DNA of 64,000 nt, from NCBI RefSeq assembly GCF_000769655.1, contig NZ_CP008887.1, forward strand, positions 1,612,001-1,676,000. The letters are read 5' to 3'. This DNA comes from Thermococcus eurythermalis. Lineage in GTDB: Archaea > Methanobacteriota_B > Thermococci > Thermococcales > Thermococcaceae. Numbering within the stretch: position 1 is the first letter of the stretch; the number at the start of each line of letters is the position of its first letter. Both the position numbers and the translations under genes were made by a program. Shown here piece after piece: positions 6,598 through 14,435 of this stretch. The notes beneath the pieces were generated by a model. That model made no database searches and was not told the origin of the DNA. It worked only from the letters and a program-made list of their open reading frames with translations.

Positions 6598-7006
6598 TCA
6601 ACCGCCGAAGAGCCAGAGCACCGCGTCCGGGAAGCGCCTCGACCAGTAGTACTCGCTGTGCGTTGCCCCATCGTCCTCAACGACGAGGAGGTTTTCGCCC
6701 TCCAAGTAGCCCCTTTCCTTCAGTACCTCCGCCATCTTCATGTTGGTCTCTATCATTTCACTGGGGTCGCTTCCCTCAATGGTTCCCCAGTCGATGTAAA
6801 TCCTCCCCGGGCCCTTGGGGGCGTTCCTCACGAAGTCGTAGATTTCCGGGTTGAACCAGAAAGCCGAGCTCATGGCCCCGATGTAGCGGAAGGTCTCCGG
6901 ATACTTGAAGCCGGCGTAGATAGATATGAGCCCTCCGAGCGAGGAGCCCATTATCCCGGTCTCGTTCGGTAGGGTTCTGTAGTGGGAGTCTATGTACGGT
7001 TTAAGG
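6598..7006 (-). pseudogene. Esterase D/IroE-type alpha/beta hydrolase, 3' fragment interrupted by IS607 element
   Basis: The reading frame contains the nucleophile elbow GIMGSSLGGL and the C-terminal THSEYYWSRRFPDA with a probable catalytic His. It stays open upstream through LKPYIDSHYRTLP to about 7006, where similarity stops at the left edge of the IS607 element. The missing middle part reappears on the far side of the element (about 9023-9145, same strand). This is therefore the C-terminal half of an insertion-split esterase. An internal ATG at 6951 gives an open ORF of 117 codons, but it would lack the strands before the nucleophile and is unlikely to be active. Confidence 0.85.
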
Positions 7007-7076
7007 CTGTTCTTTAAATAGTGACATTCAAAAGGTTTAAATATTTTCGTTGCATATTCTTACTTAGGTGTCAGTA

Positions 7077-7697
7077 ATGCCCAAGTTTTACAAACCTTCA
7101 GAGGTTGCGGAACTCCTCAATTACAATAAAGTCACCATAATCCGCTGGATTCATGCAGGAAAAATCAAGGCCATCAAAATAGGCCGAGACTACAGAATTC
7201 CAGAAGAAGAAGTCCAAAAACTACTCGGCAAAAAGAAGGAAACAACAAGAGCAGTCCTCTACGCCAGAGTTTCAGGAAGAGACCAGAAAGAAGACTTGGA
7301 AACCCAACTCAAAACCCTCGAACAATACGCAGTTAGCAAAGGCTACCAAATCGTGGATGAGGTTAAGGAAATTGCCTCTGGATTGAAAGAGAACAGAAAG
7401 GGGCTCAAAAAACTAATCAACCTCGCCAAGAACGGCGAGTATGACATTCTCATCGTAACTTACCCCGATAGGCTCACCCGTTTTGGATTCAAATACTTGG
7501 AAGAACTCTTCACAGCCTACAACGTGAGGATTGAAACAGTCTTCAAGAAGGATAAAACACCAAAAGAAGAACTCGTAGAAGACTTGATTGCAATAATCAC
7601 CAGTTTCGCAGGCAGACTCTACGGGCTGAGGAGTCACAAGAACAAGAAGTTCGTTCAAGGATTCAAAAAACTCCTCACGGAGGTCGAGAACGAGTGA
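7077..7697 (+). CDS. tnpA: IS607-type serine recombinase TnpA
   Basis: A 206-residue transposase. The N terminus (about 1-50) is a MerR-like winged helix with YKPSEVAELLNYNKVTIIRW and a Gly-Arg-Asp-Tyr-Arg-Ile-Pro turn, typical of IS607 recombinases where DNA binding precedes catalysis. The resolvase domain follows, with the nucleophile Ser66 in LYARVSGRDQ and downstream VTYPDRLTRFG. The start at ATG 7077 is preceded by AGGTG; an earlier in-frame codon at 7068 is less likely. The stop overlaps the tnpB start (GTGA). Confidence 0.93.
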   Translation: MPKFYKPSEVAELLNYNKVTIIRWIHAGKIKAIKIGRDYRIPEEEVQKLLGKKKETTRAVLYARVSGRDQKEDLETQLKTLEQYAVSKGYQIVDEVKEIASGLKENRKGLKKLINLAKNGEYDILIVTYPDRLTRFGFKYLEELFTAYNVRIETVFKKDKTPKEELVEDLIAIITSFAGRLYGLRSHKNKKFVQGFKKLLTEVENE

Positions 7698-9007
7698 AAC
7701 TGACCAAAACAGTAGTCCTTGAGAGTCTCCCACTCACAAAAAAGAAGTTCAAGGCAATGAAAGAAGTGTATGATGAATACTTGGAAATTTTGGAGTTTCT
7801 GACAGATTATGCTGTTGAGAACAGGGTAAAGAGCCACCTGAAACTCCGCAAACTCTTTTACAAGAAACTCAAGGAAGAACACGACTTACCAACCCATTAC
7901 TATTACACTGTCTGTCAGGATGCCACGACAAGGGCGAGGAGTTTTCTCGAACTGAAGAAAAAGGGCAGGGCCAGAACAGAGAAACCAGTAATTAGAAACG
8001 TTTCACTCTGGCTGGACGACGTTCTGTGGGATTACAAGAGATTCCCACAGTTCAACACGCTCAGAAACGGAAGGAAAATCCTCGTAATTGGATTAACTAC
8101 AAAGAGAGGGAGAATTAAACTCCCCCTAAAACCTCACAAACTCTTCTTTAAATACCTTGATGATGGTTGGAAGGTAAAGGCTGGCGTGAAACTCCGTATT
8201 ATCGAGAAAGAGCGGAAGGTTCTTGCGTATTTCGTCTTCGAAAAAGAGTTTGAGGAAAACAGATTGACTGGAAGTTTCCTTAGCGTGGATTACAACGCTG
8301 ACAACGTTTCCTTTGGAACTGGAGAGTTCCTGATTCAGGTTCGGACTGAGTTGGGAAAGCTAACGAGGTTTTATTCCGACGTGCGGAAGAAGATTCAAGA
8401 GTCCCACTTGGTTGGCTGGAAGAGAAAACTTCCCTCGAAGAAGGGGAGGGAATTCCTCAGGAAGTTTGGACAGAGGAAGATGCACAAGAGAATTGATTTG
8501 CAGAGGAAGTTGGCGAAGAGGCTCGTTGAAGTTGCTAAAGAGTCGAATACTACTATTGTCCTTGAGGCTGTCCCCAAGAACTTTAATCAGAAGATTACAG
8601 AGAAGAGAAGGGAGAACGAGAAGAGGTTGAGGAATACTCTCCATAATATTGGTATGAACGGGTTCCAGCGGTTTGTTTTCGAGAAGGCAGTAGAGTTTGG
8701 TGTTCCCGTGGTTTTCGTCAATCCTTTTTATTCCTCTCAGGTTTGTCCTCGTTGCGGTGCGTTTAAGATTAAACCCAATGATGACGCTCTGCGTCAGAGG
8801 GTTTTCGAGTGTCCTGTTTGCGGGTTTTCTGCAGACAGGGATTTTGTTGCTGTCTTGAACTTGTTAGGGCTGTTTCCGTTCAGCCCGAAGGCCCGTGAAC
8901 CGTTAAGGGAGGAGCCGGTGGTTCCGGTAAACTTAACGGTTGAGGCCAACCTCCTGCACCACAAGAACTCATTAGTAGTGATTAGTCAGTGTTTAAAACA
9001 AAAATAG
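7694..9007 (+). CDS. tnpB: TnpB, RNA-guided nuclease of IS607 element
   Basis: A 437-residue TnpB/Fanzor-ancestor nuclease. TnpB proteins cut DNA guided by an RNA made from the element's right end. The RuvC-like core is complete: D199 in SVDYNADN, E291 in IVLEAVPKN, and the DRD at 381-383. A zinc finger (C351, C354, C373, C376) lies between the last two. The start is GTG at 7694, overlapping the tnpA stop and preceded by GGAGGT. An unusually Pro-rich C-terminal tail runs into the hairpins at the right end. Confidence 0.92.
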   Translation: MKLTKTVVLESLPLTKKKFKAMKEVYDEYLEILEFLTDYAVENRVKSHLKLRKLFYKKLKEEHDLPTHYYYTVCQDATTRARSFLELKKKGRARTEKPVIRNVSLWLDDVLWDYKRFPQFNTLRNGRKILVIGLTTKRGRIKLPLKPHKLFFKYLDDGWKVKAGVKLRIIEKERKVLAYFVFEKEFEENRLTGSFLSVDYNADNVSFGTGEFLIQVRTELGKLTRFYSDVRKKIQESHLVGWKRKLPSKKGREFLRKFGQRKMHKRIDLQRKLAKRLVEVAKESNTTIVLEAVPKNFNQKITEKRRENEKRLRNTLHNIGMNGFQRFVFEKAVEFGVPVVFVNPFYSSQVCPRCGAFKIKPNDDALRQRVFECPVCGFSADRDFVAVLNLLGLFPFSPKAREPLREEPVVPVNLTVEANLLHHKNSLVVISQCLKQK

Positions 9008-9018
9008 GTGCAGGAGGA
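8898..9018 (+). ncRNA. Putative right-end guide (omega/reRNA) region of IS607 element
   Basis: The 3' end of tnpB and the following right end can fold. AACCGTTAAG at about 8900 pairs with CTTAACGGTT at about 8929, and CCTCCTGCACC (8950-8960) pairs perfectly with GGTGCAGGAGG (9007-9017). In TnpB elements the scaffold RNA comes from exactly this place, overlapping the tnpB 3' end, with the guide taken from flanking host DNA, here esterase sequence. The RNA itself is inferred; only the stems are seen. Confidence 0.4.
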
Positions 9019-9022
9019 AACG

Positions 9023-9145
9023 GTTTCAACGATGAAGCGGACATAGGCGTCTCCTTCCCCGCCCCCTCCGTAGGCCTCGTTCCTCCACGGTGAATACTCG
9101 TCTGTCCTCTTCTCACCGCCGTTGTCTATGCCGACAACGGGGTCG
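9023..9145 (-). pseudogene. Esterase D/IroE-type hydrolase, middle fragment beyond the IS607 element
   Basis: The minus strand encodes VVGIDNGGEKRTDEYSPW followed by a Gly-rich stretch, GEGDAYVRF and IVET, the conserved segment just before the nucleophile elbow in this esterase family. It joins in frame with LKPYIDSHYR on the other side of the insertion. Upstream, the frame meets a TGA and unrelated sequence, so the first half of the gene (roughly 100 or more residues) is missing here. The loss coincides with the start of the lectin-kinase gene region. Confidence 0.8.
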
Positions 9146-9236
9146 AGAAGCCAGGTTCACTCAGATGACATTATTATTCCCGGACAAATTTTAAATAACT
9201 ATTCATGACTCGTAATACCGAGAGACTTTAACTGCC

Positions 9237-12200
9237 ATGGTACTGGGGGGAACGTCTGTGAGTATAAGGAAGAATGCACTCAATGAGAAAGTGGGAATAA
9301 TCATGGTGCTCCTAGTACTCACCGCAGTGCTTTCTCCTCTGCAGGTGATAGCTTCCGAGGCTTCTCAGGAGATTACGGGCACCCATTATGACCAGTGGCA
9401 TTATGTGGGAACGGCCCAATATGACCCCACAACAGGGGGAATAATATTGACTCCAGCCAGTGCCAGCTGCGCCGGGGCGGCGTGGTTCAACTCAAGGGTA
9501 TCGCTAACGGATTCTTTTGACTTTACGTTTCTCGTCTATTTGGGTGATGATGATACGGGTGCGGATGGAATTGCATTCGTTCTCCAGGCAACTGGGACTG
9601 ATGTTGTTGGTGGCACAGGTGGAGATGTTGGCTACATTGGTATAGGGCCAAGTGTCGCCGTAAAGATAGACACTTGGGGAGACTCTGAGGATTATATTGT
9701 ACTCATGATTAACGGCACTGAAGTGGGGGACAAAACATACATCGGGAACATTGAAGATAGCAGAGAGCACTTAATGAGAATCTCGTGGGATCCATATTCA
9801 GAGACTCTCCACGTCCAGCTCGATGGCATTTCGGTTACATACAACGTGAACATTCTCAAGAACCCCGGCATACTAACTGCGTACTTTGGATGGACGGGGG
9901 GCACTGGCTTGTCGTACAACCTCCAGTACTTCAAGGTAGTTTCCATGACCGGTCTGTTCCCGGATCCCCTCGCCCGGAACATATTCCCCCCTGAGGACTG
10001 GAAGCTTAACGGGGACGCGTCCATTGCCGGAGACAAGTTCATACTTACCAAGTCTCAGGCCAATTCAGTCGGCGCAGTATGGTTCAAACAACCCCTCGAC
10101 CTTTCAGAAGACTTTACAATGCGGTTCAGAGTTTATATAAGCAATAACGCAGGAGATGGAATGGCATTTGTTCTCCAGAGTTACGGGCTCGACGCAGTTG
10201 GAGCCTGGGGATTCAACCAGGGCTACGTGCCAATTTCCCCAAGCGTCGCAGTTAAAATAGATGCAGACTATGCTTTTGATGTCCACAGGGGATACTACGC
10301 CGTCTTAATGGTTAATGGCATCGAGATTACGGATCCCGTCCCAATCGCAATCAAGGACAACAAAGAACACAATATGGAGATATCATGGGGCAGTTATTCA
10401 AAGACACTTTCAGTATACTATGATGACAAAAAAATCATATCCGAGAGAGTGAACCTTGTAAAAATCCTCGATTCCCCCACGGCATATTTTGGATTCACTG
10501 GGGCAACTGGAGGAGGCGACGTTCATCAGTACGTCAAACAGGTTGACCTTAGATTCAGTGAGGGAACTTACGTAAAGAAACACTCCTTCGTGGACCCCAT
10601 GGACTGGCAGTATTGGGGCACTGCAGAGTATAAACCAGAATATGATGCAATAAAGATTGGAAAATACACCACATCGGCAGAAGGAAGCGTCTGGTATAAA
10701 AATCCCCTTGACTTCAGGAAACCCTTCAATCTTACCTTCCTCATAGGCGCCGATTTTTATGAAGACCGGCGTAGTAGACTTTTGGCATTTGTCTTTACCC
10801 AGGATCCCGGAAATACCGACCCATGGAGCGGGTTCGTTGTAAAGTTCTATCCCGGCAATATGGGCACCACATACGTTGAGCTGGACTGGAAAAAGCAGGA
10901 ACTTTACAAATCGACTATTCAGGGAATGTACTCAGGCGTAATGGCTGATGTGACGTTCAGCTGGAATCCCTCAACGAGGAGTTTCCGTGTAACAGCGAAT
11001 GGAAACCCCGTTGCCGACTTTAAACTACCGGATACCACAGTTGCTTACTACTTGAACCGCCCAGTGTACTTTGGATTTATGAAAAATAGGGACTGGGGAG
11101 CAATGCTCATAAAACCAATCAAACTTGACTTCGAAACATTCAACACCACGGCCTTTTCGGAAAACTGGAATCTCGTTGGGGACGCCAAATATATGATGGG
11201 CAATTTTGTGCTTACGGAAGACCGGGAGTATCAGAGGGGAGCAGTTTGGTACACTAATCCCATAGACATCACCAAACCGTTTAGCGTAGAAACATCAGTT
11301 TATCTCGGCTCGAATGACAGGGGTGGCAGCGGATTAGCCGTTGTGATTCAAGCTCAGTCCAACAATGTAGTCGGACTTGACGGGGGAAACGTTGGTTATG
11401 TGCCGATATCTCCAAGTGTCGCCGTAAAAATCGATACATACGATAACTCGATAAGCAGTGATTATATCGTTCTAATGGTAAATGGAAGGGAGATACCCGA
11501 GACAATCAGACCAATTGATAACGTGGAAGATAGCCAGGAGCACCATCTTATAGTTTCGTACGATGGTGAAACAATGAGGGTAATACTCGACGGGGATAAG
11601 CTGATAGACTATCCGATAAACCTCGAGACCGTGCTTGGCTCCACGAGCGCATACGTTGGTGCGACGGCAGGGACAAGTTCGATACACAATACACAATACA
11701 TTAGGTTTGTGGAAATTAACGCTGCCCCCAGCAATTCGACTCCCCAGATGCAGGGGGCCTCTCTGTACAACAATCTTACCTATGATGGCTCTGCATTTTA
11801 TGACCCTGATGCAGACCTGATTATTCTCGGCAAATACTCTCAGGAAGGATCCGTTTGGTTTTCCAATCCCATCTCCTTAAACGGCAAACTCCAGTTTGAT
11901 CTCCTGGTGAAGCCGCCCTATGGCAACATAGCTGTTATTTTACAAAGAGGGGGCACCAATGTAGACTTAGATCGCGTCTTTAAAGGCGAGATTTATCCAA
12001 GTATAGTCATTGGAATACGTACTGACCAGAACTCAGGGAGTAAGATTACTATCGTCCAGAACGGCAATAAGTTGTATGAAAAAACTCTCTCCATCAAGAA
12101 CGTGTGGTCAGCTATATCCCTGGGCATTGGGTGGGACAACCAGACCTCAACCCTAACATTGAGCATTGATGAGACAACGATTCCTATTAAGCTTTCATCT

Positions 12201-14312
12201 GACCCCGTTGACATATGGACCGGCGATTTCTATCTGGGCGTGGGCGCAAAGATCAACGGAGATGTTGCGGCAGTCAAGTTCCTAAACGTCTCATATACCC
12301 CAGGCAATTTAGAAGAAGCCGCCAGTGAGTGGATTCCACTCGGAAATTCGGAGATACGGTCGTCGGGTGAAATCCTCCTGGTTCCGGGCATATCATCAAA
12401 GGGGGCGGTATGGCTCCGTACCCCAGTGAATCTAAGCATGGATTTCGTTGGAAAGTTCCTCCTCCGCGGCAAGTCCTCCAGGGCAGATGTCATCTCCATA
12501 GTGTTTCAAAATACCGGGCCCAGTCTGTTTTCCAATGAACCAAATACTGTGCACATTGACTTCAACTATGGCAGCCAGGAAATAAACCTCTACAATAATA
12601 AGACCAAACTGTTCCGTGGAGGGCTCCCGTCTGTAAACGATGGAAAGATGCACACCCTTACAGTTGGATGGAACGCTTCCCTGGGTGAACTCTGGCTTGA
12701 GATAGATGGTTCCAGGATATTCACCCAGAAGGTGGACATGAAAAATCTTCTCGGAGAAACGGCGTATGTAGGATTTTACGCCTCCAACGGGTGCTGTGCA
12801 AATGAAAAGTATGTCGTTCCCCTCAGCGTCAAGCAGATGGAGCCAGCGGTACTTCTTTCAAAAACTCCGGACGCTCCACAAGGCTCACCTTCCGACAGTC
12901 AGACGGAGGTATTAGCGACAACATCCCCCACCCACACCGCGTCTGCTGGCTCAAACCTAAACCCTGTTACCCTAGCGGGCGCGTTGGTTGGGTTGATTCT
13001 CGCAGGCGGGATTGTAGCGAGGGTCAGAAGCAGGAAAGGTAAACCCTCCGCTTCATCAAGAGTTGCAGAAAACCCCGCTTCGAAGGTAGCTAGGCCATCA
13101 TTACCTCCCGAAAAGCCGACCTCTGCGAAAAAGCCCGAATCAATGAAATATCAAAAAACATTCCCAGGTTTTCCATCTGAACTCTTGGACGAGTATGAGC
13201 CTTTGGAATTTCTTGGTGAGGGAGGTTTTGCTAGGGTTTTCAAGGCTAGGCGTAGGAGGGATGGTAAGATAGTTGCCCTCAAAATCCCGCGTATTGACGA
13301 GAAGACCAGCAAAACCTTCATTAAAGAAGTCTCAACATGGCTTCATCTCAACCACCCAAACATCGTAAAACTCTACGACGCAGACATCCTACCAATTCCA
13401 CACCTCGAAATCGAGTTTGTTGAAGGAATAAATCTCAACGGTGACGTCATAAGAGACCTTAGCAAGTATCCAAAGCCTGTTGATGAGAAAACAGCGCTAA
13501 AGATTATTGAAGGTATCGCTAAAGGCCTTAAGCATGCCCACTCGAAGGGAATCTATCACCGCGACCTTAAGCCCCAGAACGTCCTTATAACATCTAATTT
13601 AACACCAAAGATTACCGACTGGGGGCTAGCTAAAGTGGGAGATATTTCAACCACGACGACCAGGGGATTGACCCCCCTATATGCTGCTCCAGAACAGTTT
13701 GATGAAGAAGTTTATGGTCCTACTGACCATAGGACTGACATTTACCAGCTTGGATTGATTTTTTACGAGTTGCTGACTGGTAAGCTCCCGTACCAAGGTG
13801 CTTCGCCGGCGGCTGTGATGGCTAAGGCAACTAACCAGGATATAAAGCCCCTGCCACCGAGCCATTTCAACAAGGCCTTATCAAAATACGATGGGATTTT
13901 CGAGAAATTACTGACGAAGAGAAAAGAGGACCGCTATCAAAGTGTTGATGAATTTCTATCGGCCCTGAAATCCCTTAGAGAACTGAAGAGAGAGAAGAAA
14001 GAGCTTGAGAAGACAAGTCTGGCTATGAGGAAGAGCCACTCGCGGGAGGAGTTTGAGAGGCTAAGAATCGAAAGCATTCACAAGACCGTGAAGATTGCAA
14101 TCCTAGCGGCAAAGTCCAACGACAAGGTCGAGCTTATCAACGCGCTTGAGGACTTGAAGGAGCTTTCGAGAAGACATAGGAAGGAGCTCGAGAATGCAAT
14201 AAACCAGTTGGAAATAATGATGCGCGATGGCGTGCCAATAAAAGAAGGCACAATAAATGAACTCAGAGTCCTCCTCCACAGAATACAAAAGGAGGTGGAA
14301 AAACGAAGGTAG
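9237..14312 (+). CDS. Membrane receptor-like protein: lectin-like ectodomain repeats + cytoplasmic Ser/Thr kinase
   Basis: 1691 residues. An N-terminal signal or anchor helix (about 18-40) is followed by about six related beta-sandwich units starting near 47, 245, 445, 635, 840 and 1025. Units 1, 2 and 4 carry the L-type lectin-like pattern DGxAFVLQ, GYxxIxPSVAVKID and LMxNG; unit 3 is more diverged and units 5-6 are shortest in their signatures. A Ser/Thr-rich stretch leads to a TM helix (about 1243-1262) and a basic stop-transfer. The kinase domain (about 1316-1590) has GEGGFARV, VALKIPR, HRDLKPQN, DWG in place of DFG, and an APE motif, so it should be active. A charged coiled coil ends the protein. 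A TATA-like TTTTAAATAAC lies at about 9190. GTG 9258, preceded by GGGGGG, is an alternative start. Ligand and substrates are unknown. Confidence 0.88.
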   Translation: MVLGGTSVSIRKNALNEKVGIIMVLLVLTAVLSPLQVIASEASQEITGTHYDQWHYVGTAQYDPTTGGIILTPASASCAGAAWFNSRVSLTDSFDFTFLVYLGDDDTGADGIAFVLQATGTDVVGGTGGDVGYIGIGPSVAVKIDTWGDSEDYIVLMINGTEVGDKTYIGNIEDSREHLMRISWDPYSETLHVQLDGISVTYNVNILKNPGILTAYFGWTGGTGLSYNLQYFKVVSMTGLFPDPLARNIFPPEDWKLNGDASIAGDKFILTKSQANSVGAVWFKQPLDLSEDFTMRFRVYISNNAGDGMAFVLQSYGLDAVGAWGFNQGYVPISPSVAVKIDADYAFDVHRGYYAVLMVNGIEITDPVPIAIKDNKEHNMEISWGSYSKTLSVYYDDKKIISERVNLVKILDSPTAYFGFTGATGGGDVHQYVKQVDLRFSEGTYVKKHSFVDPMDWQYWGTAEYKPEYDAIKIGKYTTSAEGSVWYKNPLDFRKPFNLTFLIGADFYEDRRSRLLAFVFTQDPGNTDPWSGFVVKFYPGNMGTTYVELDWKKQELYKSTIQGMYSGVMADVTFSWNPSTRSFRVTANGNPVADFKLPDTTVAYYLNRPVYFGFMKNRDWGAMLIKPIKLDFETFNTTAFSENWNLVGDAKYMMGNFVLTEDREYQRGAVWYTNPIDITKPFSVETSVYLGSNDRGGSGLAVVIQAQSNNVVGLDGGNVGYVPISPSVAVKIDTYDNSISSDYIVLMVNGREIPETIRPIDNVEDSQEHHLIVSYDGETMRVILDGDKLIDYPINLETVLGSTSAYVGATAGTSSIHNTQYIRFVEINAAPSNSTPQMQGASLYNNLTYDGSAFYDPDADLIILGKYSQEGSVWFSNPISLNGKLQFDLLVKPPYGNIAVILQRGGTNVDLDRVFKGEIYPSIVIGIRTDQNSGSKITIVQNGNKLYEKTLSIKNVWSAISLGIGWDNQTSTLTLSIDETTIPIKLSSDPVDIWTGDFYLGVGAKINGDVAAVKFLNVSYTPGNLEEAASEWIPLGNSEIRSSGEILLVPGISSKGAVWLRTPVNLSMDFVGKFLLRGKSSRADVISIVFQNTGPSLFSNEPNTVHIDFNYGSQEINLYNNKTKLFRGGLPSVNDGKMHTLTVGWNASLGELWLEIDGSRIFTQKVDMKNLLGETAYVGFYASNGCCANEKYVVPLSVKQMEPAVLLSKTPDAPQGSPSDSQTEVLATTSPTHTASAGSNLNPVTLAGALVGLILAGGIVARVRSRKGKPSASSRVAENPASKVARPSLPPEKPTSAKKPESMKYQKTFPGFPSELLDEYEPLEFLGEGGFARVFKARRRRDGKIVALKIPRIDEKTSKTFIKEVSTWLHLNHPNIVKLYDADILPIPHLEIEFVEGINLNGDVIRDLSKYPKPVDEKTALKIIEGIAKGLKHAHSKGIYHRDLKPQNVLITSNLTPKITDWGLAKVGDISTTTTRGLTPLYAAPEQFDEEVYGPTDHRTDIYQLGLIFYELLTGKLPYQGASPAAVMAKATNQDIKPLPPSHFNKALSKYDGIFEKLLTKRKEDRYQSVDEFLSALKSLRELKREKKELEKTSLAMRKSHSREEFERLRIESIHKTVKIAILAAKSNDKVELINALEDLKELSRRHRKELENAINQLEIMMRDGVPIKEGTINELRVLLHRIQKEVEKRR

Positions 14313-14435
14313 TTATGAAGGGCTGATGCTTAGCAGTTTTTCCATTCTGTTTTTTTCCATTGTGGACACCCTTGGTAATCCAGTTCCGGGGGTACTCAAA
14401 GGTATAGCCCGCGTATTATTTGGTCTCTAACTTTT

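Follow-up and report, generated by a model that had tools for sequence, protein, structure and literature searches.

The window, a 64,000-nucleotide stretch of the genome of the heat-loving archaeon Thermococcus eurythermalis, contains a single uninterrupted open reading frame of 1691 codons (9237..14312, forward strand, like all gene features given below), which ORF and Pfam analysis identify as the CDS of a lectin-type receptor Ser/Thr kinase of 1691 aa. The domain order of the product is a signal helix, six legume-lectin-type units, one transmembrane (TM) helix, a Ser/Thr kinase domain and a helical C-terminus. Hydropathy places the N-terminal hydrophobic helix, a signal peptide or signal anchor, at residues ~19–40 (9291..9356) and the TM helix at residues ~1242–1262 (12960..13022), with the basic stretch RVRSRKGK directly after the latter. 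This arrangement fits a topology with the ectodomain outside and the kinase inside the cell. A TATA-like element, TTTTAAATA (9189..9197, +), recognized by consensus match only, lies 5' of the start codon as a candidate promoter that would allow the kinase gene its own transcription. The original prediction had the coordinates, strand and frame exactly; the signal helix and the single TM helix that it described are both present, and its assignment to an archaeal host was borne out. Thus, the observation is real and mostly as described, whereas its interpretation is partly supported.

Pfam detects the Lectin_L-type_dom (PF18483, E = 4.8e-120) in six stretches of the ORF, and the proposed number of about six repeats was right: for each pair of the six units (u1–u6), the score is higher than in any of 200 shuffles (z from 6.1 to 50.7), and a profile built from the lectin units of other genomes alone matches all six, with u3 and u5 matched only in part (E-values: u1 5e-62, u2 5e-52, u3 5e-8, u4 1e-52, u5 4e-9, u6 2e-27). 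On these comparisons, the units resolve into two classes. The first comprises full L-type lectins, namely u1 (residues 46–239; 9372..9953; Pfam, shuffles, profile and fold) and u2 (244–438; 9966..10550; shuffles and profile), both canonical and retaining the loop-A aspartate, together with u4 (637–838; 11145..11750; shuffles, profile and fold), which combines a canonical fold and a DTYDN metal loop with a Ser at the loop-A Asp position. The second comprises the divergent units u3 (447–636; 10575..11144), which has lost the metal/sugar loops, u5 (842–1026; 11760..12314) and u6 (1024–1212; 12306..12872), all recognized by shuffles and profile. The predicted L-type lectin signature is therefore canonical in u1, u2 and u4, but it does not extend to u3, u5 and u6, which are without metal/sugar loops; judged by sequence, three of the six units look like working lectins.

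We modelled the ectodomain with AF2 as two three-unit stretches (mean pLDDT 73.8 and 66.4, with low loop confidence). Foldseek ranks the legume-lectin domain of Methanocaldococcus jannaschii first for both models (PDB 7elv; TM-scores by target of 0.84 and 0.86). Next come SraP and YwfG, which are bacterial adhesin lectins, and numerous legume lectins; the LNS tandems of neurexin and laminin are also matched across the whole length. The ConA-like sandwich is thus found together with the L-type sequence profile. The fold expected of the repeats is recovered through 7elv for one canonical unit per model, and for the divergent units it is indicated by the profile matches and by strands in a comparable order where the models are of lower confidence. 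In comparison with 7elv, u1 still has the ADG aspartate in loop A, a Gly-rich loop B and a metal loop with DTW. The loop-A Asp, which belongs to the monosaccharide site and is present in u2 as well, is not conserved in u3 and u5, while u6 has an aligned Asp without the following Gly. In u1, u2 and u4, the Mn-ligand positions of the plant legume lectins are replaced, Glu by Lys and His by Tyr (or another residue). In the legume lectins that Glu binds Mn, whereas ERGIC-53 and VIP36 have a Ca-only site, and by analogy with the latter a Ca-only site in the canonical units is plausible. Given the replaced Mn ligands, the missing loop-A Asp of u4 and the three loop-less units, sugar binding may be weak or absent, although the ectodomain is probably the sugar-sensing outer part of the kinase.

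The protein kinase domain (residues 1320–1588; 13194..14000; Pfam and family alignment) matches Pkinase (PF00069, E = 2.2e-44) over residues 1320–1568 and displays the Hanks-type motifs: the Gly loop, the VAxK lysine, the αC glutamate, HRD, the following Asn, DxG and APE. All checked catalytic residues, including the Lys and Asp named in the original prediction, are present, and G1327, K1349, E1364, H1441, D1443, N1448, D1461, G1463, E1486, D1501 and R1566 are conserved in 99–100% of 97 family members. The replacement of DFG by DWG is common to the family. By its sequence, then, the kinase is predicted to be competent, and its nearest solved relatives are the bacterial PknB and Stk/StkP. What had been taken for a terminal coiled coil is instead a helical domain of ~100 residues (14004..14309) that is conserved throughout the 97 members, with 18 positions above 60%. 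Archaeal STKs have been described to bear a small helical, PCI/wH-like domain (Makarova et al. 2024, PMC10936438), and taking the fold from that work, the C-terminal domain is probably the corresponding small PCI/wH-like domain of the ESCRT-associated STKs. Hence, the domain order, the intact kinase, its family membership and the retained C-terminal helical domain can all be read from the sequence.

Relatives of the kinase and its C-terminal region are encoded by 47 of the 94 Thermococcaceae genomes, with up to 11 matches per genome, and are often clustered with genes for a Vps4-like AAA ATPase, Snf7-like proteins and PP2C phosphatases. The Vps4-like copy of the T. eurythermalis genome has a Vps4_C domain; the Snf7-like matches are below Pfam's cut-off. 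All 38 genomes with a Vps4-like gene also have the kinase family (Fisher 9e-18, a statistic inflated by uncorrected shared ancestry). The kinase of the window lies inside a clade of 21 sequences (support 99/97), to which 11 of the 13 kinases with Vps4 and PP2C as neighbours belong; its identity to its nearest relative is at most 69%. Its nesting in this clade and the C-terminal helical domain assign it, as far as sequence can, to the ESCRT-associated archaeal STKs ('Main' clade). Archaeal 'Main' ESCRT systems have been described as including STKs and STPs (Makarova et al. 2024, PMC10936438); the word 'lectin' is absent from the main text of that paper. It describes such loci; according to reviews, ESCRT-III is missing from the Thermococcales. 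In the T. eurythermalis genome, the ESCRT cluster (L031 1135–18783; contig interval G000:C1:1480000–1499500) consists of genes for conserved proteins of 179 and 613 aa, a Snf7-like protein, a kinase, the Vps4-like AAA ATPase, a further kinase, a PP2C and an SBP_bac_5–PEGA–kinase, followed by a stomatin-like gene; by position, the 179- and 613-aa proteins are probably arCOG08177 and arCOG09748, the latter encoded at L031:1646–3487. The lectin kinase gene is ~130 kb from this cluster (1484116–1497309), and we accordingly file it as a stand-alone paralogue and not as a component of the ESCRT locus. Given this distance and the occurrence of the lectin-kinase version in just one of the 94 genomes, its link to ESCRT rests on family membership. 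The original prediction that it stands alone is true of the gene; the kinase type, however, is that of a large family in the Thermococcales with ties to ESCRT/Vps4 loci.

Across genomes, the N-terminal parts of this kinase family range from PEGA, beta-propeller, solute-binding protein (SBP), Laminin_G_3 and TPR domains to almost none. Even in the slot beside Vps4 and PP2C, the variants include one with next to nothing (406 aa, G067), one with SBP_bac_5 (G042) and two with a propeller and PEGA (G072, G022). A Laminin_G_3 ectodomain (E = 1.9e-30) on a 1790-aa family kinase (L081:1671–7043, G044) represents a second, different ConA-like fold captured by the family. Family 5 solute-binding domains are fused to the kinase in the SBP_bac_5–PEGA protein of the T. 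eurythermalis genome (L031:12964–17310) and in L093:6294–10100, joining a transporter-type sensor to a Ser/Thr kinase. Two other stand-alone family kinases, both with PEGA ectodomains (G018:C1:752466–756344 and G029:C1:915034–918786), are far from their respective ESCRT loci, so the solo placement recurs. On sequence comparisons, the lectin kinase is best read as an ESCRT-associated STK that stands alone and whose sensor has been swapped.

Upstream of the gene, in the region 6598–9150 of the window, an IS607-type pair (a serine resolvase with an HTH, and TnpB; ~7006–9022) interrupts an esterase gene that the relative G044 has in one piece; the remainder of the interrupted gene is cut off near 9150. 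The mobile element noted beside the kinase gene is thus indeed next door, but it is a separate insertion within the broken esterase gene. Carriage of the kinase as IS607 cargo can be rejected, since homology to G044 resumes at 9023 within the same esterase, ahead of the kinase segment. On the other side, homology to the relative G020 resumes at 14429, just 5' of a flavodiiron gene. No simple empty site for the segment was found; in G020 the two flanking genes are ~124 kb apart. Together, the end of the esterase remnant, the resumption of homology at 14429 and the separated flanks place the kinase segment at a rearrangement junction. No repeats that would point to its transposition are evident on its flanks. 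The G+C content of the lectin-kinase region is ~46–50%, as against ~54–57% in the flanks beyond. We also discarded membership in a defence system: the PADLOC matches (mad6, PD-T4-6) fall on the generic kinase domain with its near flank and are uninformative.

Several known systems resemble parts of this protein. The membrane STKs of the archaeal 'Main' ESCRT systems (PMC10936438) share the kinase family, the membrane anchoring and the C-terminal helical domain, with paralogues beside Vps4-like and PP2C genes, but have Ig-like, PEGA, PQQ or other N-terminal parts in place of six L-type lectin units, and the present gene is outside the ESCRT locus. The bacterial PASTA kinases (PknB, StkP, PrkC) have the nearest solved kinase domains and the same topology; however, their ectodomain is on the C-terminal side, not the N-terminal one, and PASTA domains are lacking here. 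The M. jannaschii legume-lectin domain (7elv/7exo), the closest solved lectin (~40% identity to u1 by Foldseek), keeps the classical Glu/His metal positions that are Lys/Tyr here, as do the plant legume lectins, and its solved construct is without a kinase. The plant L-type lectin receptor kinases (L-LecRKs) are alike in working, with a lectin outside, one TM helix and a Ser/Thr kinase inside, but they have one lectin domain against the six units found here and an RLK/Pelle-type kinase against a PknB-like one of an archaeal family. That the protein is nonetheless a true homologue of the L-LecRKs, acquired from eukaryotes, has only its domain order to commend it and is improbable in the extreme: its kinase has PknB/Stk as nearest solved relatives and is nested in an archaeal family, and its multiple lectin units are nearest to archaeal and bacterial lectins, with that of M. 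jannaschii the nearest solved one. We therefore reject kinship; the convergence proposed in the original prediction stands, and the lectin-kinase architecture appears to have arisen independently of plants.

We infer the ligand, activation and output of the lectin kinase as follows. Our preferred reading, held at slightly less than even confidence, is that the protein, a receptor kinase that crosses the membrane once and a stand-alone paralogue of the Thermococcales ESCRT/Vps4-locus kinases, uses six L-type lectin units to couple glycans to ESCRT-locus signalling. Units 1, 2 and perhaps 4 would bind glycans, probably via a Ca-type site, with an S-layer or other envelope glycoprotein, exopolysaccharide or the surface of a neighbour as candidate ligands, while units 3, 5 and 6 would act as spacers. 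Multivalent binding might cluster or reorient the receptor, whereupon the cytosolic kinase would trans-autophosphorylate at the TTTT of its activation segment. Through its C-terminal domain the receptor could then dock on products of the ESCRT locus, which lies at another place in the genome, so that events at the surface would change how membranes are remodelled or proteins sorted; a PP2C phosphatase of that locus would reverse the phosphorylation. Vesicle release is not to be assumed as the output, because unpublished work cited in a review (PMC10117752) found that disruptions of the Vps4 homologues in T. kodakarensis leave vesicle output unchanged.

A possible but less probable alternative is that the lectin receptor kinase has no connection with ESCRT: it would sense polysaccharides of the environment or surfaces for attachment, and its targets would be unrelated proteins, for example of transport, metabolism or adhesion. 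The location outside the cluster, the candidate promoter in front of the gene, the two further stand-alone kinases (G018:752466, G029:915034) and the solute-binding ectodomains, which suggest nutrient sensing, are all compatible with it, but by its C-terminal helical domain and its kinase clade the protein belongs with the Vps4/PP2C-linked kinases. It is unlikely that the lectin-fold units bind no sugar at all and form a rigid stalk or protein-binding array in the manner of laminin-G/LNS tandems, signalling strain in the envelope or the presence of a partner protein: half of the units are without binding loops, the metal-ligand substitutions and the Ser of u4 point the same way, and LNS tandems are matched over the whole length, yet u1 and u2 retain the loop-A Asp and u1 also the Gly-rich loop B and DTW. 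The 1691 open codons and intact catalytic residues make it highly improbable that the gene is a recent rearrangement product without established function, an orphan duplicate with a captured surface-protein ectodomain, despite its presence in 1 of 94 genomes at a low-G+C junction beside a broken esterase gene; moreover, the kinase is at most 69% identical to its nearest relative, a divergence that implies enough time for a copy without function to decay.

If the preferred reading of a glycan-to-ESCRT receptor is right, it would provide a receptor kinase with a defined candidate ligand class in an archaeal order that has genetic tools, and it predicts that an outside signal reaches an ESCRT-type system through Ser/Thr phosphorylation. 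More generally, the swapped ectodomains name candidate ligands for the archaeal ESCRT-locus STKs and make sensing by them testable. We raise, as a more speculative and rather doubtful extension, that the Thermococcales keep strain-variable receptor kinases in which a conserved kinase and docking domain are recombined with different sensors to gate ESCRT/Vps4 remodelling or sorting, the lectin kinase being a glycan-triggered input. Were this true, the strain-variable set of lectin arrays, SBPs, PEGA, propellers and laminin-G domains would be an archaeal parallel to the expansion of plant receptor-like kinases.

Finally, we surveyed the distribution of the lectins themselves. A first scan of genome contigs with a single-sequence query gave no matches. 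L-type lectins were found in 6 of the 94 Thermococcaceae genomes; those of the other five (G012, G018, G023, G032, G039) are surface proteins whose units are 35–44% identical to u1, but they lack a kinase and carry a hydrophobic tail of the GGICGPA type at the C-terminus. No other case of the lectin and kinase order was detected in the 94 genomes or in other genomes of the same class that were searched; likewise, no such kinase was seen in the lectin frame of the best 79 bacterial lectin loci, mostly of Bacteroidota, and a literature search on archaeal lectin kinases and 7elv/7exo returned nothing relevant. In G032 and G018, ORFs beside the genes for the lectin surface proteins (L027 9644–10657 and L028 3712–4596) contain a recurring motif, LSILLESYCN/FNSPRVLLQ, of the kind that a translated CRISPR array typically gives; Cas-like genes lie further out.
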